A stretch of 64,000 bases of DNA from positions 87,175 to 151,174 of the forward strand of contig JAKQUO010000019.1 in assembly GCA_029569255.1 (NCBI GenBank), read 5' to 3'. Source of the stretch: Acidobacteriota bacterium (lineage in GTDB: Bacteria; Acidobacteriota; Aminicenantia; Aminicenantales; Saccharicenantaceae). Every line of letters starts with the position of its first letter. Position 1 is the stretch's first letter. This document shows, piece after piece, positions 2,703-16,481 of this stretch. Position numbers and translations under genes: made by a program. The notes under the pieces were generated by a model. The model saw only the letters and a list, made by a program, of their open reading frames with translations, did no database searches and was not told where the DNA came from.

Positions 2703-2860
2703 AGATGTAACGTTTGCAGACATTCGGGAGTATTAATCCGGAGGGCGGACTGCGGCCCTCCTCGAGACCGCGTGTTTTCCCCTTCCGGCACGCGGATCGC
2801 CGGGCAGAGGGGAGGAGATATTCATCTCGGGGGGCCAGGGGCCGCCGCGGAGGAGCGCAA

Positions 2861-4180
2861 ATGAAGAAGCCGTCCGGAGCCGCGCCAGTTCTCGCCGTCC
2901 TCTCCTTCCTCGGCCTGTTCCTCCCATCCCCCGCCCGTCCGCAAGACCGGCCCGACATCGACGAGCTGAAAAAGACCGCCCTCAAGGTCTTCCTCGACTG
3001 CGACTACTGCGATCTCGAGTACATCAAGACCGAGATCACGTTCGTCAACTACGTCCGGGACCGCTTGGAGGCCCAGGTCCACGTGCTCATCAGCACCCAG
3101 GCCACGGGCGGCGGCGGGACCGAATACACGCTGACCCTCATCGGCCAGAACGACTGCCGGGACATCCAGGACGTCCAGACCTACTACTCCGTCAAGACCG
3201 ACACCCGCGACGACGTCCGCCGCGGCCTGGTCAAGGCCCTCAAGCTGGGCCTGATGAGCTTCGTCGCCCGGACTCCCATCGCCTGCCGGATCGCCGTGGA
3301 CTACGCGCCGCCCGAGAGGCCCATCGAGGTCCGCGACCGCTGGCGGTCCTGGGTCTTCAGCCTCTCGGGCGACGGCTGGTTCTCGGGGGAGAAGAGCTAC
3401 TCGAGGCGCATGCTCAACGGCTCGTTCTCGGCCAACCGGGTCACGCCGGGCTCGAAGCTCCGGCTGGGACTGTTCGCCGATCGGAAAAAGGAGCGCTACG
3501 AGTTCGAGAACGGCGCGGGCGGCACGGACACGTTCACCGGCGTGTCGTCGAGCTGGGACGCCAGCGGCACGTGGGTCAAGAGCCTGGGCGATCACTGGTC
3601 GGCCGGCGTCTTCCTCGAGGCCGAGTCGTCCTTCTACCGGAATATCGACCTGTCCCTGAGGATCGCCCCGGCCGTCGAGTACGATTTCTTCCCCTACTCC
3701 CAGTCGACCCGGCGCCAGCTCCGGGCCCTGTACACCCTGTCGCTCAATCCGATCAGCTACCGAGAGGAGACGGCCTTCGGCAAGCTGCGGGAGACCCTGC
3801 TCAAGGAGGAGCTTTCGCTGACCCTCGAGCTGCGCGAGAAGTTCGGCACGATCAGCCTCAACGCCGAGGGCTCGAACTACCTCCACGACCTGGGCCGGTA
3901 CCGCATCGACACCTTCGGCAGCCTCAGCCTGCGCCTTTACAAGGGCCTCAGCGTCTCCTTCTTCGGCGGCTATACCTGGTACCACGACTCCCAGCTCTCT
4001 CTCCGCCTCCGGCAGCCGACCTACGAGGAGCTCCTCCTGCGCCTGGTCGAGCTGCCCATGAACAGCAACTACTTCGTCTCCGTCGGCTTCGAGTTCCAGT
4101 TCGGCTCCATCTTCACCAACGTCATCAACCCCCGCTTCGGCTCGCCCCGGCGCGGCGGCATGTCCTTCCGCTTCTTCTAG
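2861..4180 (+). CDS. Exported beta-barrel protein of unknown function, paralogue 1
   Basis: 439 residues with a signal peptide (MKKPSGAAPVLAVLSFLGLF, cleavage near RPQD). An N-terminal soluble domain of about 170 residues follows, with two cysteines in FLDCDYCDLEY and others at NDCRD and IACRI. A beta-strand-rich C-terminal half ends in MSFRFF, typical of outer-membrane barrels. The ATG at 2861 is preceded by GGAGGAG, which fits better than an upstream ATG at 2714. The downstream neighbour is a clear paralogue: both share [14 protein letters not shown] and YSxSTRRQLR motifs. I do not recognise a named family. An envelope protein with a periplasmic ligand-binding or scaffold domain is plausible, but the function is unknown. 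Confidence 0.8.
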   Translation: MKKPSGAAPVLAVLSFLGLFLPSPARPQDRPDIDELKKTALKVFLDCDYCDLEYIKTEITFVNYVRDRLEAQVHVLISTQATGGGGTEYTLTLIGQNDCRDIQDVQTYYSVKTDTRDDVRRGLVKALKLGLMSFVARTPIACRIAVDYAPPERPIEVRDRWRSWVFSLSGDGWFSGEKSYSRRMLNGSFSANRVTPGSKLRLGLFADRKKERYEFENGAGGTDTFTGVSSSWDASGTWVKSLGDHWSAGVFLEAESSFYRNIDLSLRIAPAVEYDFFPYSQSTRRQLRALYTLSLNPISYREETAFGKLRETLLKEELSLTLELREKFGTISLNAEGSNYLHDLGRYRIDTFGSLSLRLYKGLSVSFFGGYTWYHDSQLSLRLRQPTYEELLLRLVELPMNSNYFVSVGFEFQFGSIFTNVINPRFGSPRRGGMSFRFF

Positions 4181-4196
4181 GATGGGGGAGATCGCC

Positions 4197-5486
4197 ATGA
4201 GCACGCAACGCCGCCGCCCCGCCGCCCTTCTCCCGGTCGTTCTCCTCTTGGCCGCCGCCGCCGCGGCCCAGGCCCCGCCGCCCGGCCCGGCCGGGCCGCC
4301 GCCGCCCAAGCCCCGCGTCTTCGTCGATTGGCCGGGCGGCGACCTGGCCGCTCTGCAGGCGGAGGCCCCCTTCGTCGAGTTCGTGGCCGACCTCGCGTCC
4401 GCCAACGTCCTGCTCGCCGTCGCTCCCGCCGGGCCGGCCGCAAGCGGCGCGTTCACGCTCGCCTTCACCGGGAAGGGCCCCTTCCAGGGCGACGACAACG
4501 TCCTGCCCTTCGCGCCGGACCCGGGGGCGACGCCAGGGGAGGCGGCCCGGGGCCTGGCCGGGGCGGTCAAGCTCGGCCTTCTCCGCTACGCCGCCAAGAC
4601 CCCGGTCGCCGCCGACTTGGCCGTCACGTTCCTCGACCAGGCCAAGCCGACATCGGTCAACGACAAGTGGGATTTCTGGGTCTTCAGCCTGAGCGCCAAC
4701 ACCTTCCTCAACGGCGAGACCCAATACCGGAGCGGGTCCTACTACGCCTCGGTCTCGGCCGACCGCGTCACCCCCGCCCTCAAGATCCAGACCCGGGCCT
4801 ACGGCAACTGGAACGACAACTGGTTCGACCTCGGCGGCGGCGCCGTTTACGAGAGCGCGACCCACGGCTACGGGGGGTCGGCCCTGGTCGTCAAGAGCCT
4901 GAGCGATCACTGGTCGGCGGGCGGCTTCCTCGAGGCCGAGTCCTCGACCTTCTCCAACCTCCGGCTGTCCCTGACCGCCGCCCCGGCCCTCGAATACGAC
5001 CTCTTCCCCTACTCCGAATCGACCCGGCGCCAGCTCCGCCTCCTCTACCGGGTCGGCCTCACCCGGGCCCGCTACTACGAGGAGACGGTCTACCTCAGGA
5101 CCGCCCAGACCCTGCTCCAGGAGTCCCTGGACATCGCTTACAAGGTCGTCCGGCCCTGGGGCAAGGCCGAGGCCCGGGTCAAGGGCTCGCACTTCTTCCA
5201 CGACTTCTCCAAGAACCGGCTCGAGATCGAGGCCGACCTGGAGTTCCGGATCTGGCGCGGCCTGAGCTTCCAGATCGAAGGCGGCTACTCCCGGATCCGC
5301 GACCTGCTCTCCCTCTCGGCCGAGGGAGCCACGCTCGAGGAGATCCTCCTCCGCCAGAGGCAGCTGGCCACGGGCCACAGCTACTCGTTCTCGGTCGGCT
5401 TCAACTTCTCCTTCGGCTCGACCCGGAGCAACGTCGTCAATCCGCGCTTCGGCAACGGCGGCCGCTCGTTCCACATGGGCATGTAG
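4197..5486 (+). CDS. Exported beta-barrel protein of unknown function, paralogue 2
   Basis: 429 residues, 16 nt after its paralogue and certainly co-transcribed with it. It has a signal peptide (leucine/alanine core, cleavage near AAAQA) and a proline-rich linker. Its N-terminal domain has lost the cysteines of paralogue 1. The barrel half matches closely ([33 protein letters not shown]) and both proteins end near an NPRFG motif. The ATG at 4197 is preferred over 4182 because GGGGGAG lies 6 nt upstream of it. Loss of the cysteines suggests that the two proteins have diverged in the periplasmic domain while keeping the same barrel. Function unknown. Confidence 0.78.
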
Positions 5487-8329: not shown

Positions 8330-10114
8330 CTATTTCAGGGCGACCGTCTTGCTGGCCCTTCCTCCCTTGACGCTGTCGTAGGTCACCTTGACCGAGCCCG
8401 ACCCCTTGACGATCAGGACGGCCGTCCGGGTGGCCTTGCCCGGCTGCCCGTTCCGGATGAGGATGCGCTTGAGGTCCTTCTGGTCGACGAGCGGGGTCAC
8501 CGAGGGGTTGATCTTGTGGACGGTCTTGCTGTCGACGAAGCTCGCGGCCAGGACCTCGACGTTCCGGCCCTCGGTCAGGAGCAGGTCGGGGCGGACGGTG
8601 CCGGTCTGGGCCGCCTTGGCCAGGACCGTCGGCACGACCTTGGGGTTGGTGATGTCGACGTAGACCCGGTAGACGTCGCCGCCGATCCGCTCGACCTCCG
8701 CGTCGTCCAGCCGGACGAGCGGCATTTCGTCGGCCTGGTAGAGGGAGAAGGCCATGTTCCGGTGGCAGAGCTCCTCGTTCATGAACCGGGGCGGGACCCG
8801 GCCCTGGTACTTTTTCCACACGCCGCCCATCTCGACCCGGCCGAACTGCGGGTGGTCGAAGGGCGTCCACTTGACGTACTCTTCGCCGAACTCGAGGTAC
8901 TTGTCGAAGAAGTACCGGGACTGGGCGGGGGCGATGGGGCTCGACGGGTCCTGCTGCTGCTCCTTGAGGGCCGGGCTGGTGAAGTATTGCTCGCCGTTCC
9001 AGAGCTCGTTCGAGAAGGAGACGATGCCCAGCCCGTCGTTGGTGTAGTCGATGAAGCCGCCGTGCACGGTGTAGAGGCCGCTCCAGATGACGATGTAGCG
9101 GTAGAAGGGCAGCATGCGCTCGCCGTTCTGGCCGAGCTCGTCGTAGGCCCTGGCGTCGGGCTGCGGGTACTCCCCGACCGCCTCGGCGCCCGGCCCGCGC
9201 AGGATCATGCCGCCGGTGTTGTGGTAGGACTGGACGCCGGCGATGTTGGGGTGGGCCTTGAGGAAATCGGCCACCGCCTTGGCCTCGGGCAGCTGGAACG
9301 GGTAGTCCATGGCCCCGCCCTGGACGTAGTTGGGCTGCCAGTCGCTGGGCCAGTTCCGGTTGGGGTCGTAGGAGCCCGGCCCGTCCTCGTTGACCAGCCC
9401 GTCGCCGTCGTTGTCGATGCCCTCCTGGCCGAGGAGGATGTAATCGCCCTTCTCGCCGAACGGCACGGGCTCGAGCAGGTCGGGGTTGTCCCGGCTGATG
9501 CGGTAGTTGCCCTGCCCGGGGACGTACTTGCGGATCATCTCGACGATGCCGTTGCCGTTGATGTCCTCGGGCGGGTCCTCGTCGAAGAGGCCGTCGTTGT
9601 CGTCGTCGACCGGGACGTGCCCGGACCGGGCGTTGCCGCCCGGCCCCTCCATGAAGTACTGGTGGCCGTCGGGGTTGACCGTCGGGATGATGTAGAAGAC
9701 GCGTTCGTCCACGAGCCGGGTGATGTCGGCGTTCCGGCCGTAGTTCTCCATGAGGTACCAGATGGTGTAGAGGCAGACCTCGCAGCCCTGGATCTCGTTG
9801 CCGTGGACGTTGGCCTCGATGTACATGCCCGCCTTGCCCGACTCCGGGCCGGTGGCGGGGTTGTTGATGGTCATGAGCCAGAGGTCGCGGCCGTTGTGGC
9901 TCTTGCCGATGGACTCGAGCTTGAGGAACTTGGGAAAGGCGGCCTGGAGCCGCCTCATGTCGGCCGCCAGCTCGTCGCAGTCGTGCCAGCGGTTGAAGTC
10001 GAGCTTGACCTTGAAGGCCGGGTCGGAGGCCTTCTGGGCCGGGGCGAAGGGGGTCAGGAGCAGCAGCCCGGCCGCCGCGGCCAGGGCCAGGACCGGTGTC
10101 TTTCGCGTTCTCAT
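8330..10114 (-). CDS. M14 family zinc carboxypeptidase, secreted
   Basis: 594 residues. Residues 1-27 form a signal peptide. The M14 zinc site is complete: His104 and Glu107 in EANVHGNEIQG, and His298 in QSYHNTGG. The substrate-carboxylate residues sit in DPNRNW (252-254) and the catalytic Glu is probably Glu370 in SFSNELW. Two acidic loops, VDDDNDGLFDED (169-180) and DNDGDGLVNED (234-244), look like calcium-binding DxDxDG repeats and are inserted in the peptidase domain. A beta-sandwich-like tail of about 130 residues follows. The role is probably extracellular peptide degradation. AAGGAGG precedes the ATG. It is co-transcribed behind an M14 paralogue whose active site is lost. Confidence 0.92.
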   Translation of the reverse strand: MRTRKTPVLALAAAAGLLLLTPFAPAQKASDPAFKVKLDFNRWHDCDELAADMRRLQAAFPKFLKLESIGKSHNGRDLWLMTINNPATGPESGKAGMYIEANVHGNEIQGCEVCLYTIWYLMENYGRNADITRLVDERVFYIIPTVNPDGHQYFMEGPGGNARSGHVPVDDDNDGLFDEDPPEDINGNGIVEMIRKYVPGQGNYRISRDNPDLLEPVPFGEKGDYILLGQEGIDNDGDGLVNEDGPGSYDPNRNWPSDWQPNYVQGGAMDYPFQLPEAKAVADFLKAHPNIAGVQSYHNTGGMILRGPGAEAVGEYPQPDARAYDELGQNGERMLPFYRYIVIWSGLYTVHGGFIDYTNDGLGIVSFSNELWNGEQYFTSPALKEQQQDPSSPIAPAQSRYFFDKYLEFGEEYVKWTPFDHPQFGRVEMGGVWKKYQGRVPPRFMNEELCHRNMAFSLYQADEMPLVRLDDAEVERIGGDVYRVYVDITNPKVVPTVLAKAAQTGTVRPDLLLTEGRNVEVLAASFVDSKTVHKINPSVTPLVDQKDLKRILIRNGQPGKATRTAVLIVKGSGSVKVTYDSVKGGRASKTVALK

Positions 10115-10125
10115 CGTCGCCTCCT

Positions 10126-12153
10126 TCACTTGAGGGTCACCCGGGCCGTCGCCGACCCGCCCTTCTCCGACCGCACCACGAGCTCCACGGCCTGGCCGGG
10201 CTTGCCCTTGACGAGCCATTCGAACTTGGCCCGGCCGCCGGAGCCGGGGAGCGTCTGAACGAACGAGGTCTTGGGGCTGCCGGAGACGACCGCGCCGGGG
10301 TCGACGCCGAGCTGGACCATGGTCGGCTTGACCGACCGGGCCGTCACGGCCTGGGCCAGCGCGGTCGGCCAGAAGCCGGTGTTCTCGACCTCGGCCCTGA
10401 GCCGGTAGAGGCCGCCACCGAGCCCTTCCGCCTCGAACGAGGCCGCCCGGACCCGCGGGAACAGCGAGATCAGATAGGCGGCGAACTCGGCGTGCGCCTG
10501 GCCGAGCCCGGCCAGCTTGTCCGCCGGCGGGTTGGCCGCCGCGTAAGGCTTGAATCCGCCGACCTCGACCTCCCCGAATTCGGGGTGCTTGACCTTGGTC
10601 CAGGGGACGAAGCCGTCGATCTTCTCGGCCTCCATCCACTTCAGGACCTGCCTGTCGATGCCGGGCGCCGCCGCCGCGGCGGCCGGCGCGGGACCGCCGC
10701 CCCCGGCCTGGCCGAAGCCGCCCACGCCGCCGCCTCCCGCGGCTCCCGTCTGCCGGGCCGGCGCCGCGCCGCGCCCGGCCTGGACCGGCGGGACCGCCGC
10801 CCCCGGGTCCGGAGGCGCGCCGCCCGCCGGCCGGCGCGCCGGGCCCGGCTCGGCCGTCGCCAGGCCGAAGCCCGGCGTCGAGAAGGAGGGCACGCCGAAC
10901 TGGTAGTACCCGTACTCGAAGAAGGCCCCCCGCGGCTCGCGCACGCAGAGCGGCTGGCGGATGCCGGTCGTCTCGACGTACTTGTCCGAGACGGCCTTGA
11001 AGAAGTCGTAATCGCCCGGCGCGACCGTCGTGGCCGGCTTGCGGTCGGGCATCATGAACCGGGAGAACTCCGAGCCGGCCGCGGCCTGGGCCGCGCGCGG
11101 GGCCTGGCGACCGCCGCCCCCGGGCATCTCGAACGGGAAGCCGCCCATCATCATCCGCCCGCCGCGCCCCATGGCGCCGCCGGTCTGGATGAAGCCGGCG
11201 GCCCGAGCCGCCGCTACGGCGGTGTCCGCGAACCGGACCAGGTCGAGCTCGCGGGCCGGGCCGAGCCGGCCGGCGCCCGTCGGCGGCACGATGAGGTTGT
11301 CGCTCCCGCCGAAGGTCAGGATGGCGGCGACGTTCCTGTGGGCGACGATCCAGGCCATCAGGGCCCTGGCCTCGGCCGCGCTGACCATGTGGGGCCCGGC
11401 GCCGGGCTGGCCGTAGGGATACTCGTGGGCGAAGTTGCGGTCGAGGTCGATGCCGCCCGGCGGGTCCTCGTTGATGAAGCCGTCGCCGTCGTTGTCGATC
11501 CCTTCGGTGTAGAGCCGGTAGCTCCCGGTCTCGCCCTTCTTCGGGTCGGCCCTCTTCATGAGCCGGGGGTCCTCGGGGTCGATCATGTACTCGCCGCCGG
11601 CGGCCTTGACCCGCATGACCGTGATCAGGCCGTCGCCGTTGAGGTCGTCGGGGCCGTCTTCGTCGACCCGGCCGTCGTTGTCGTCGTCGTAGGGTTCGCG
11701 GTTGGTCCTCGCGCCCGTCTTGAGCGGGGCGAAGAACCCTTCGGCGCCGTCGGGGTTGAGGCGCGGGAGGACGTAGACCGTGGCCTCCGAGGCCGGGGCC
11801 TTGGCCAGGATCCCGGCCACGGCCAGGGCGATCTCGGTGCCGGCGAGGCGGTCGCCGTCGAAGCCCGCGGCGACGAGCAGGGCCGGGCGCTGGGCCGGCG
11901 GGACGGGGCCGGGGCCGCCGATCTCGAGGGCCCAGATGTCCCGGCCGCCGGCCGATCTTCCGATGGACTCGAGCCTGACGACGGCCTTGTTCGCGTTCGC
12001 CAGGGCCTGGACGGCCTTGGTCAGCGCGGCGTGGTCTCGGTAGCCGGCCGGGCCCTGCGCGGCCGCGGGGCCCGACGCCAGCCCGAGGGCCAGGACGGCG
12101 AGGAGCGGCAGAAGGGCCGCCGGACGATGGAAACCGGTCAGAAAGCGACGCAC
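10126..12153 (-). CDS. M14 peptidase-like protein with degenerate active site
   Basis: 675 residues from a GTG start at 12153, chosen because AAGGAGG lies 5 nt upstream and the signal peptide (FHRPAALLPLLAVLALGLA) begins there. The protein aligns along its length with the downstream M14 enzyme, including the two acidic DDDNDG/DNDGDG loops and the DRNF motif. The zinc ligands are replaced: HxxE reads D99-G-D-R102, the third-ligand His is Gly in ILTFGGSDN, and the catalytic Glu position is Pro in SFSTPGF. A Gly/Ala/Pro-rich insert covers roughly residues 375-495. It is therefore probably a non-catalytic binding partner or pseudo-enzyme. The frame is intact, so it is not a pseudogene. Confidence 0.85.
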   Translation of the reverse strand: MRRFLTGFHRPAALLPLLAVLALGLASGPAAAQGPAGYRDHAALTKAVQALANANKAVVRLESIGRSAGGRDIWALEIGGPGPVPPAQRPALLVAAGFDGDRLAGTEIALAVAGILAKAPASEATVYVLPRLNPDGAEGFFAPLKTGARTNREPYDDDNDGRVDEDGPDDLNGDGLITVMRVKAAGGEYMIDPEDPRLMKRADPKKGETGSYRLYTEGIDNDGDGFINEDPPGGIDLDRNFAHEYPYGQPGAGPHMVSAAEARALMAWIVAHRNVAAILTFGGSDNLIVPPTGAGRLGPARELDLVRFADTAVAAARAAGFIQTGGAMGRGGRMMMGGFPFEMPGGGGRQAPRAAQAAAGSEFSRFMMPDRKPATTVAPGDYDFFKAVSDKYVETTGIRQPLCVREPRGAFFEYGYYQFGVPSFSTPGFGLATAEPGPARRPAGGAPPDPGAAVPPVQAGRGAAPARQTGAAGGGGVGGFGQAGGGGPAPAAAAAAPGIDRQVLKWMEAEKIDGFVPWTKVKHPEFGEVEVGGFKPYAAANPPADKLAGLGQAHAEFAAYLISLFPRVRAASFEAEGLGGGLYRLRAEVENTGFWPTALAQAVTARSVKPTMVQLGVDPGAVVSGSPKTSFVQTLPGSGGRAKFEWLVKGKPGQAVELVVRSEKGGSATARVTLK

Positions 12154-12253
12154 TCCGACCTCCTTGGGGGGATTTGCGCGGAACGGGCACAATGGCGAGG
12201 TGACATCCGTCCCTTTAGACGCCGCCCCCATCCCATTCTTCCGCGAAAAACCC

Positions 12254-12259: not shown

Positions 12260-12291
12260 GCTCGCGAATGACGTGGAGAGAGGAGCGCCGC

Positions 12292-13563
12292 ATGCCGAAA
12301 CCCCGCCCCTTGACCCGCCGCCGCTTCATCCGCGCCGGAGCGGCGGCCGCCGCGTCGCTGGCCGTCGTCCCCCGCCGCGTCCTCGGCGGCCAGGGCCATC
12401 TCGCCCCGAGCGACACCCTGACCAAGGCCGTCGTCGGCGTCGGCGGCATGGGCCGCGGCCACCTCGGCTACCCCGGCGCGGTCCTCCGGGCCGTCTGCGA
12501 CGTCGACCGCGGGCACCTGGCCGCGGCCCTGGAGATGGCCGGGCCCGGCGTCGCCGGCTACACGGACTTCCGCGAGGTCCTGGCCCGGCCCGACATCGAC
12601 GTCGTCCACGTCGCCACGCCGCCCCATTGGCACGCCCTGATCTCGATCGCCGCGGCCGAGGCCGGCAAGGACGTCTGGTGCGAGAAGCCCATGACCAGGA
12701 CCATCGCCGAGGGCCGGGCCGTCGTCGAGGCCGTCCGCCGCACCGGCCGCGTCTTCCGCGTCAACACCTGGTTCCGGTTCACGGACCGCTTCTACGGTTT
12801 CGGGACCGAGGTCCGGCCGATCAAGAAGGCCGTCGAGAACCGTCTCCTGGGCTGGCCGGTCAAGGCCGTCGTCAGCGCCGCGACGGGCTTCGACTGGAAG
12901 TTCTTCTGGAGCGGGCTGACGCACGCCCGGCCCGAGCCGGTTCCGCCCGAGCTCGACTACGATTTCTGGCTCGGCCCGGCGCCCTGGAAGCCCTACCATC
13001 CCCACCGCGTCCACGGCACCTTCCGGGGCTACTGGGACTACGACGGCGGCGGGCTCGGCGACATGGGCATGCACTACCTCGACCCGGTCCAGTACATCCT
13101 GGAGAAGGACGACACGAGCCCCGTCGAGGTCTTCGCCGACTGCCCCCAGCAGCACCCCGACGCCTGCGGCAGCTGGCGGCGGATCGAGCTGAGGTACGCC
13201 GACGGCTGCGCCATCGTCCTCGACGGCGAGAACCGCGACACGCGGGCGCCGTTCCTCGAGGGCCCCTTAGGCAAGCTCTACCGCGGCTTCGAGTCCGACA
13301 TCCCCGGCCTCCGGCAGAAGCTGGCCGGCCTGCCCGACCCCGCGCCCCAGCTCACCGACTTCGCCGAGGCCGTGAGGTCGAGGCGCCGCTTCGCCCTCAA
13401 CGAGGCCAACGGGCACCGCTCCTGCACACTGGTCAACCTGGCCAAGATCGCCGTCCAGCTCGGCCGCCCCCTGAGATACGATCCCGCGACCGGGACCTTC
13501 CCCGGCGACGAGGCGGCCGACAGGCTCGCGAACCAGCCCATGCGGGCCCCGTGGCGCCTTTGA
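12292..13563 (+). CDS. Gfo/Idh/MocA family oxidoreductase with Tat signal
   Basis: 423 residues. The N-terminus TRRRFIRAGAAAAASLAVV is a twin-arginine signal, so the enzyme should be exported folded with its NAD(P) cofactor bound. The Rossmann fold begins at VVGVGGMGRGH. The family motif EKP is present in WCEKPMTRT (about residue 130), and the C-terminal alpha/beta domain contains the GLGDMGMHYLD segment. The next gene carries a DUF1080 domain; enzymes of that family hydrolyse 3-keto-disaccharides made by Gfo/Idh dehydrogenases, so a sugar-oxidation role is likely. Start at 12292 rather than 12268 because of the AGGAG site at 12281-12285. Substrate is inference. Confidence 0.9.
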   Translation: MPKPRPLTRRRFIRAGAAAAASLAVVPRRVLGGQGHLAPSDTLTKAVVGVGGMGRGHLGYPGAVLRAVCDVDRGHLAAALEMAGPGVAGYTDFREVLARPDIDVVHVATPPHWHALISIAAAEAGKDVWCEKPMTRTIAEGRAVVEAVRRTGRVFRVNTWFRFTDRFYGFGTEVRPIKKAVENRLLGWPVKAVVSAATGFDWKFFWSGLTHARPEPVPPELDYDFWLGPAPWKPYHPHRVHGTFRGYWDYDGGGLGDMGMHYLDPVQYILEKDDTSPVEVFADCPQQHPDACGSWRRIELRYADGCAIVLDGENRDTRAPFLEGPLGKLYRGFESDIPGLRQKLAGLPDPAPQLTDFAEAVRSRRRFALNEANGHRSCTLVNLAKIAVQLGRPLRYDPATGTFPGDEAADRLANQPMRAPWRL

Positions 13564-13583
13564 AAGGCCGGGAGGAGACGCCC

Positions 13584-16481
13584 ATGGACAAGAAGCTCGC
13601 CGTCCTCGTCCTCGCGGCCCTGGCCGTCGGCCTCGCCGGTCCCGCCCTCGCCCAGGGCGGCTCCCCGGCCCCGCCCCCCGAACTCGCGGCCCGGGTCTCC
13701 TCGATCGTCGGCCGCTTCCCGGGCGGGACCGCGGCGGCCACGGCCGCGCTCGCCGCCGAGCTCGTCGCGCTCGGCCCGGCCGGCCTGGCCGGGACGCTGG
13801 CCCTGGTCGAGCCGCCGGGCGGGGCCGACGACGCCAAGGCCCGCTTCGCCGTGAACGGCCTCGCGGTCCACGTGACCCGCCCGGGCGCGGAACGCGAGCG
13901 CCTCCTTTTCGTCAAGGCCCTCCTCGCGGCGGCCGCCGCGAGCCCGGACAAGGACCGGGCCTCGTTCTTCATCTCGCAGGTCGAGCTGGCCGGGCGGGCG
14001 GAAGCCGTGAAGCCGCTGGCCCTCTTTCTCTCCGACGGGTCCCTCGCCGGCCCGGCCGCCCGGGCCCTCCAGGCGATCGGCGGTCCGGAAGCGGCCAGGG
14101 CCTTGCTCGCGGCCCTGTCCGCGAAGAAGGCCCCGGCCGGGGACGTCGCGGCCGTCGTCGAGGCCCTGGGCGCGCTGCGGAGCCGTGAGGCCGTCAAGAA
14201 GCTCATCCCGCTGGCCGCCTCGAACGACGAAGGCCTGCGCCGCGCCGCCCGCGCCGCCCTGGCCAACATCGGCGACCCGGCCGCGACGGGCGTCCTCTCC
14301 CGGGTCCTCGTCTCGTCATCGAGCGGGGAACGGGCCCGGGCGCCGCAAGACCTCCTGCTCTTCGCCCGCCGCCTCGTCGAATCCGGCCGGGCGGCCGAGG
14401 GGCTCGCCGCGGCCCGGGCGCTCCTCGCGTCGCACCGGGGGCCCGCGGAGAGCCAGGTCGCGGCCGGGGCCTTGTCCCTCCTCGCCTCGGCCATCGGCCC
14501 GGAGGCCCTCCCCGATCTCCTCCAGGCCGCCTGCGGTCCGGACGCTCGCCTCAGGGGCGCCGCGCTGGAGGCCGCGGCCGGCATCGCCTGGGACGGCGCC
14601 GCGCTGGGCCGCTGGATCGGCCGGGCCAAGGATTCGGGGCCCGAGACCCGGGCCGGGATAATCGACATGGTGGGCCGGAGCGGAGACCCGGCGGCCCTGG
14701 CCTTCATCCGCGAAAGCCTGGCCGACCCGGACAAGGTCGTCCGGCTGGCCGCCATCCGCTCGTCGCCGCCGGACGACGCCTCCCTTCTCCTCCGGCTCCT
14801 CGACACGGCCGACGACGAGGAGGCGGCGGCCCTGAGGGCGGGATTGCTCCGTTTCGAGGCCGGAGACGTCGTCCCCGCGGCCGCCCGCCGCATCGACACG
14901 ACCCCTCATCCGGGCAAGGCCGTCCTCATCGACGTCCTGGGCGAGAAAGGGGCCCGGGGAGAGATCGAGCGCGTCTTCAGGCTGGCCGCCGATCCCGAGC
15001 CTGCCACCCGGGCCGCGGCCCTCGGCGCCCTGGCCAAGCTGGCCGGCGAGTTCGAGCTGCCCAGCCTCGTCGCCATGCTGGAGAAGGCCGTGGACGCCGA
15101 AGACATCGTCCGGCTCCAGGACGCCGTGATCGCCGCCTCCCGCGGCGCCGACCCGGGCCGGAGAGGGACCGCGCTCGTCGGGCTGATGAAGGACGCCTCG
15201 CCGGCGCGCAAGGCCGCGGTCCTCCGCGTCCTGTCCCGGGTCGGTGGCGAACGGGCCCTTCGGGCCGTGGTCGAAGAGACGGCCGCGGCCGACCTCCAGG
15301 TCCAGGCGGCCGCGGTCTACGCCCTGTCCCAATGGCCGGACTTCGGCGCGGCCGAGGGCCTTCTCCGCGTCGCCGCGACGACCGCCAGCAGGCGCTATCG
15401 CCTCCTGGCCCTGGACGGCTACGTCCGGCTCGTCGGCCAGTCCGGCACCCCCGCCGCGGGCAAGCTCGCGCTCTATAAGGACCTCCTGGGCCAGGCGTTC
15501 GACGACGCCGACAAGAAGGCCGTCGTCCGCGGCCTCGGGGCCGTCCGCGACCCCGGTTCGCTCCGCCTCCTGGCCGGGCTGCTCGACAACCCGGCCCTCG
15601 GCGAGACGGCCGCGGCTGCCCTGCTGGATCTGGCCTCCGAACAGGCGCCGCACGAGCGCTGGCTCTCGGGACCCGAGGCCCATTCGGCCCTGCGCCGCGT
15701 CGAGGCGCTCCAGGCCGACCCGGCCGAAAAGGCCCGGGTCGCCGCTCTCGTCGCCGACCGCCTGCGGCAGGGAGGCTTCGTCCCGCTCTTCGACGGCCGG
15801 TCGCTCGCCGGATGGAAGGGGCTCGTCGCCGATCCCCCCGCCCGGGCCAGGATGGCGCCGGCCGAGCTGGCCGCGGCCCAGGCCGGGGCCGACGAGAGGA
15901 TGCGGGCCCACTGGCGGGTCGCCGACGGCGTCCTCGTCTTCGACGGCGAGGGTGACAGCCTCTGCACGGCCGCCGATTACGGCGACTTCGAGCTCCTCGT
16001 CGACTGGAAGATCGAAAAGGGCGGCGACAGCGGCCTCTACCTCCGCGGCTCGCCCCAGGTCCAGATCTGGGACGCCGAGGCCAACCCCGCCGGCTCCGGC
16101 GGGCTCTACAACAATCGGAAGGGCCCGAGCGCGCCGCTCGAGAAAGCCGACCGTCCCGTCGGCGAGTGGAATACGTTCCGCATCGTCATGATCGGCGAGC
16201 GGGTCACGGTCTTCCTCAACGACCGGCTCGTCGTCGACGACGTCGTCCTCGAGAACTACTGGGAGCGGGACAAGCCCATCTATCCTTCGGGCCCGATCGA
16301 GCTCCAGGCCCACGACAGCCCGCTCTATTTCCGGAACATCTTCATCCGCGAGATCCCGCGGGGAGAGGCCGCGCCCTCCGCGCGGACCGATCCGGCCCCG
16401 GCTGCTTCGTTCCCGGGGATCCGCACCGCCGAAGAGCACAGCCCCCCGGGCCTCGCATCCGAGGGCCGTCTCGATCCGTGA
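13584..16481 (+). CDS. HEAT-repeat protein with C-terminal DUF1080 (3-keto-disaccharide hydrolase-like) domain
   Basis: 965 residues with a signal peptide (KLAVLVLAALAVGLAGPALAQ). Residues of about 150-700 are an alanine- and leucine-rich run of alpha-helical HEAT-like repeats. From about 730 to 930 comes a DUF1080 concanavalin-like domain, opening with FDGRSLAGWKG and including GGDSGLYLRG and ELQAHDSPLYFRNI. The last 30 residues are low-complexity. DUF1080 proteins bind or hydrolyse glycans, and several characterised members act on 3-keto-glycosides. The Tat-exported Gfo/Idh enzyme 20 nt upstream would supply such oxidised sugars. The HEAT part is probably a protein-binding scaffold. The fusion is clear; the catalytic activity is inferred. 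Confidence 0.85.
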   Translation: MDKKLAVLVLAALAVGLAGPALAQGGSPAPPPELAARVSSIVGRFPGGTAAATAALAAELVALGPAGLAGTLALVEPPGGADDAKARFAVNGLAVHVTRPGAERERLLFVKALLAAAAASPDKDRASFFISQVELAGRAEAVKPLALFLSDGSLAGPAARALQAIGGPEAARALLAALSAKKAPAGDVAAVVEALGALRSREAVKKLIPLAASNDEGLRRAARAALANIGDPAATGVLSRVLVSSSSGERARAPQDLLLFARRLVESGRAAEGLAAARALLASHRGPAESQVAAGALSLLASAIGPEALPDLLQAACGPDARLRGAALEAAAGIAWDGAALGRWIGRAKDSGPETRAGIIDMVGRSGDPAALAFIRESLADPDKVVRLAAIRSSPPDDASLLLRLLDTADDEEAAALRAGLLRFEAGDVVPAAARRIDTTPHPGKAVLIDVLGEKGARGEIERVFRLAADPEPATRAAALGALAKLAGEFELPSLVAMLEKAVDAEDIVRLQDAVIAASRGADPGRRGTALVGLMKDASPARKAAVLRVLSRVGGERALRAVVEETAAADLQVQAAAVYALSQWPDFGAAEGLLRVAATTASRRYRLLALDGYVRLVGQSGTPAAGKLALYKDLLGQAFDDADKKAVVRGLGAVRDPGSLRLLAGLLDNPALGETAAAALLDLASEQAPHERWLSGPEAHSALRRVEALQADPAEKARVAALVADRLRQGGFVPLFDGRSLAGWKGLVADPPARARMAPAELAAAQAGADERMRAHWRVADGVLVFDGEGDSLCTAADYGDFELLVDWKIEKGGDSGLYLRGSPQVQIWDAEANPAGSGGLYNNRKGPSAPLEKADRPVGEWNTFRIVMIGERVTVFLNDRLVVDDVVLENYWERDKPIYPSGPIELQAHDSPLYFRNIFIREIPRGEAAPSARTDPAPAASFPGIRTAEEHSPPGLASEGRLDP

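Follow-up and report, generated by a model that had tools for sequence, protein, structure and literature searches.

A catalytically dead M14 peptidase homologue conserved beside an intact paralogue in Acidobacteriota and other bacterial phyla

The window, a stretch of 64,000 nucleotides from a contig of an Acidobacteriota bacterium, carries two neighbouring genes for M14-family proteins, of which the upstream one encodes a pseudo-M14 protein and the downstream one an intact metallocarboxypeptidase (Table 1). The upstream reading frame extends to an ATG at 12231 (10126-12231, minus strand, 701 codons). Judging from the sequence, GTG 12153 is the likelier start because a perfect Shine-Dalgarno sequence (AAGGAGGT) lies just 5′ of it, which favours the gene bounds of the original prediction. 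The protein comprises a signal peptide, a dead M14 domain, Gly/Ala/Pro-rich inserts and a C-terminal beta-rich domain, and it matches Pfam Peptidase_M14 (PF00246) with an E-value of 1.9e-19 and 70.8 bits against a curated cut-off of 21.6; NCBIfam assigned no family to it. The intact gene begins 11 bp past the pseudo-M14 gene and has its own AGGAGG ahead of the start. Its product matches the same Pfam family with an E-value of 8.7e-44, holds all M14 catalytic residues (His69, Glu72, His196, Glu270, Asn144 and Arg145) and is 30% identical to the upstream paralogue over 375 aa (BLASTP, E 9e-43). No sigma-70-type promoter was found at the locus, and the terminator scan stayed at chance level.

Further along the window, a Gfo/Idh/MocA oxidoreductase gene (12268-13563) adjoins a gene at 13575-16160 for a HEAT-repeat protein with a C-terminal 3-keto-disaccharide hydrolase (DUF1080) domain. 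Tandem paralogues at 2714-4180 and 4182-5486, 38% identical, apparently exported and without a Pfam match, look like outer-membrane beta-barrel proteins. Among the related loci described below, no third gene accompanies the pair universally; the most frequent neighbour family is present in 17 of 67 loci. Within 3 kb of the pair, 17/67 loci encode a secreted repeat protein of ~1050 aa that we read as BNR/sortilin-like, on either side and on either strand (L074, L083, L095, L125, L139-L143 and others).

Table 1. Features of the M14 gene pair; positions refer to the window and residue numbers to the GTG start
Feature	Position	Strand	Basis or remark
Pseudo-M14 gene, 675 aa from GTG 12153	10126..12153	(-)	ORF list, Pfam, residue alignment, model
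Shine-Dalgarno AAGGAGGT ahead of GTG 12153	12158..12165	(-)	perfect match
Intact M14 metallocarboxypeptidase, 594 aa, signal peptide	8330..10114	(-)	second gene of the pair
Former HxxE zinc motif, now DGDR (D99-R102)	11848..11859	(-)	residue alignment
Third zinc ligand His196, now G282	11308..11310	(-)	residue alignment
Catalytic Glu270, now P427	10873..10875	(-)	residue alignment
M14 Asn144/Arg145 pair, now D238-R239 (Asn lost, Arg kept)	11437..11442	(-)	residue alignment
First acidic calcium-like loop DDDNDGRVDEDGPDDLNGDG	11629..11688	(-)	near-invariant among dead copies, also present in intact partner
Second acidic calcium-like loop EGIDNDGDGFINEDPPGG	11452..11505	(-)	kept

The residues of the pseudo-M14 protein were assigned by alignment to the intact paralogue, in which the reference residues are H104, E107, N252, R253, H298 and E370. 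In this alignment, the upstream protein of the window lacks the catalytic M14 set: D99 replaces His69, R102 replaces Glu72, His196 has become Gly and the general base Glu270 has become Pro, in agreement with what the original prediction had read at these sites. The two acidic loops, which that prediction had described as kept, are both retained and appear calcium-like by sequence. Its claim that a DRNF motif is preserved did not hold, in that most relatives carry NRNF and Asn144 has therefore also been lost in the window's copy. A model of the protein (AlphaFold2, 66 relatives) reached a pLDDT of 85.7 and a pTM of 0.85, with the low-confidence parts mainly in two Gly/Ala/Pro-rich inserts. Its closest structures were carboxypeptidase T and other M14 carboxypeptidases at Z ~29 (carboxypeptidase T: Z 29.1, rmsd 3.1, 278 aligned). 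The model and the Pfam match agree with the earlier expectation of a preserved fold, and the M14 alpha/beta architecture is predicted with high confidence to be kept. The predicted fold, the Pfam match and Arg145 are common to the pseudo-M14 protein and the active M14 carboxypeptidases of PF00246 (carboxypeptidase T, CPD domain II, CPM/CPN). Unlike these enzymes, it has none of the three zinc ligands and no general base, and it carries acidic calcium-like loops and low-complexity inserts, whereas its intact partner, like them, retains every catalytic residue.

Ten further M14 places were located in the window's genome, and motif reading shows HxxE in the stretch around each; among the M14 genes of this genome, HxxE has been lost in the upstream protein only. 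A related unpaired M14 family (L047:2515-4482; C25:203308 in the window's own genome; L178-L186) keeps HxxE and Glu and has Asp replacing the third-ligand His (QTMDTTVPM), a state found in the window's genome and in 7 of the 9 relatives where the motif was found.

In 60 related genomes, a search returned close orthologues of the pseudo-M14 protein at 54-80% identity, together with more distant pairs, and an active-like copy of ~600 aa came next wherever the contig continued. Moreover, a scan of GTDB representative genomes yielded 80 loci in Aminicenantes, other Acidobacteriota, Bacteroidota, Rhodothermota, Gemmatimonadota, KSB1, Calditrichota and one Opitutus bin, nearly all of them metagenome-assembled genomes, so that single taxon assignments are uncertain. 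Residues were scored in an alignment of 215 proteins with 114 upstream partners (from Aminicenantes, other Acidobacteriota, Bacteroidota, Gemmatimonadota, KSB1 and Calditrichota) and 100 scorable downstream copies, counts that include near-identical rows and fall to 101 and 89, respectively, once duplicates are removed. When the conservation of the ligand losses among relatives was checked, HxxE, His196 or Glu270 was kept in none of the 114 upstream copies, and a loss of HxxE specific to the window's genome is thereby ruled out. Position 196 was Gly or Ser in 111/114 of these copies, and position 270 was mostly Pro, Asp or Asn. His69, Glu72, Arg127, His196 and Glu270 were present in all 100 scorable downstream rows, as were Asn144 and Arg145; both of the latter have been lost in a distant upstream sub-clade.

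The pair is adjacent and its order unvarying in every locus where both genes are visible, and where an upstream copy has no full partner, it is located at or near the end of its contig. Candidate unpaired copies (L195-L199) were rejected, as the tree placed them in other M14 clades outside the paired ones; L200, for its part, is one of the downstream copies and sits where a contig ends. In a first tree, from which the four catalytic columns were excluded and in which the related unpaired, HxxE-keeping family was included, the upstream and the downstream proteins each formed a single fully supported group against that family, and a second tree with five more unpaired M14 relatives returned the same two groups with 100/100 support each. 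The Opitutus row sits within the Acidobacteriota clade in both trees, a placement that may reflect transfer or misbinning. Because each set forms a single sister-like clade, one duplication, one ancient loss of catalysis and pairwise inheritance would suffice as the simplest account. The branching orders of the two sets mirror one another, and over 60 loci the correlation between their distance matrices is r = 0.95, where 1000 permutations gave 0.24 at most. This correlation indicates co-inheritance, not contact, because common species history and physical linkage both feed into it.

The pseudo-M14 gene is under purifying selection and far from neutral, with a dN/dS of 0.07-0.34 in six close pairs, each time somewhat higher than that of the partner. 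In-frame TAG codons in the orthologues of two relatives (L036 in G012; L041/L068 in G005), which are sequencing errors or recent decay, would fit a decaying duplicate without function. We regard this reading as extremely improbable given the intact frame in most relatives, the dN/dS well below 1 and the ancient retention across phyla, and the pseudogene interpretation is refuted by dN/dS and conservation. Collectively, the clade-wide ligand loss, the invariant pairing, the mirror trees, the purifying selection and the confident M14 fold strongly support a pseudo-enzyme conserved beside an active paralogue; the coupling of active and inactive copies put forward in the original prediction is thus substantiated by adjacency, tree shape and selection, while the roles it suggested, binding of substrate or control of the partner, are conjectural.

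The dead site has a conserved signature of its own. Of 113 upstream copies, 106 have Glu or Asp at position 69 and 83 have His at position 72, the commonest state being a swapped ExxH in place of HxxE. The window's copy is an exception that has lost both His at 72, and hence ExxH, and Asn144; a relative 80% identical to it (L031) reads EGDH at the HxxE site, and DGDR in the window is a further change, in this lineage, on the usual ExxH state of the clade. Such swapped ligands could suggest that the upstream protein binds metal through ExxH and serves some other catalytic or metal-dependent function, which we consider quite improbable, since the third ligand is Gly or Ser and the general base Pro, Asp or Asn in nearly all copies, His at 72 is absent in 30/113 and the window has Asp-x-x-Arg. 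Conservation of the columns around the dead site slightly exceeds that of the remaining domain (mean entropy 1.49 versus 1.67), and type-II divergent columns comprise the acidic residue at 69, D/N-N-L just past 196 and a Tyr at the partner's Gly. Because the near-site columns are conserved, several of them differently from the active copies, the pocket looks maintained in a new form and not drifting. From the alignment, binding of a peptide carboxylate (the substrate C-terminus) in this pocket cannot be a universal role of the pseudo-M14 proteins, because the distant sub-clade has neither Asn144 nor Arg145.

The pseudo-M14 protein probably serves its live partner in a conserved, non-catalytic capacity. 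In the interpretation that we favour, to a degree somewhat better than even, the locus encodes a secreted M14 pair whose upstream member would be an obligate non-catalytic partner subunit. The two-gene unit would supply both secreted proteins, the downstream one as a complete metallocarboxypeptidase; in the upstream paralogue, zinc binding and catalysis would have disappeared in a single event that preceded the spread of the pair over several phyla. The product of this paralogue would associate with its active counterpart beyond the cytoplasm, in a physical complex that we infer, as we do the direction of regulation and the substrate, and would shape the substrate recognition, stability or activity of its partner. 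M14 enzymes are usually regarded as monomers, which counts against an obligate partner. The pair was also modelled as a computational fusion from the relative L086, in which both genes share a frame and the stop codon was read as Gly to join the chains; with 16 paired rows, unpaired rows being left out because single-domain rows misaligned to one half, AlphaFold2 gave a pTM of 0.48 and no reliable interface. We entertain only tentatively the proposition that the pair represents an undescribed, obligately heteromeric M14 peptidase class of several bacterial phyla, in which the dead site would have been rebuilt (ExxH, DNL) into a pocket for the chain end of the substrate or the partner.

Animal M14 pseudopeptidases bind other proteins in the extracellular matrix (PMC11266112), and a dead site with its own conserved chemistry would also suit an independent secreted protein that binds a peptide, polymer or surface, or acts as a scaffold for it, and that is expressed with the enzyme in a common pathway without binding the enzyme. 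This alternative seems unlikely to us, given that the upstream protein never occurs without the active partner in resolvable loci, which exceeds what a shared pathway alone demands. Very improbable, in our assessment, is an inhibitor or folding chaperone of the partner in place of a lasting subunit: the upstream protein is translated first, immediately ahead of the enzyme, and as a homologue could mimic the partner's self-contacts, but its sequence offered no feature pointing to inhibition, such as a peptide entering the active site.

No description of a bacterial M14 pseudo-enzyme was found in a search of open-access papers. CspA and CspC of C. difficile do not belong to the M14 family. As presented in PMC12880746, they are likewise bacterial pseudoproteases acting as protein partners; they serve in spore germination, and their heterodimer joins a pseudoprotease to a pseudoprotease, unlike the dead and live M14 pair. 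The M14 pseudopeptidases in the review PMC11266112 come from animals and yeast only. These vertebrate and yeast proteins (AEBP1/ACLP, CPXM1, CPXM2, CPD-III and Ecm14) are likewise secreted M14 folds with catalytic residues lost; unlike the pseudo-M14 protein, they usually keep His69 and several ligands, and none is described there as an operon neighbour of an active partner (PMC11266112). The role of an obligate partner subunit would have its analogy in the M16B peptidases, with an inactive alpha subunit acting on an active beta subunit. Two-gene alpha/beta operons have been described for prokaryotic M16B; in these, substrate binding and completion of the active centre fall to the inactive subunit (PMC11266112). 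Both M16B alpha/beta (MPP, prokaryotic operons) and the M14 pair consist of inactive and active paralogues, the inactive one without the zinc motif, and the adjacent, co-inherited genes of an M16B-like arrangement are found in the M14 pair; the fold and family of M16B are, however, unrelated to M14, and the heteromer is experimental there and proposed here.

Active/inactive paralogue pairs are already known for M16 and other protease families. The M14 pair is of this known kind, in a family and in phyla for which we found no description of one. In a family mostly treated as monomeric, a bacterial M14 pair kept in several phyla would introduce a heteromeric mode, and many natural pairs are available for testing the control of a live enzyme by a dead paralogue. 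Furthermore, the annotation "zinc carboxypeptidase" covers, in these phyla, many proteins incapable of peptidase activity.
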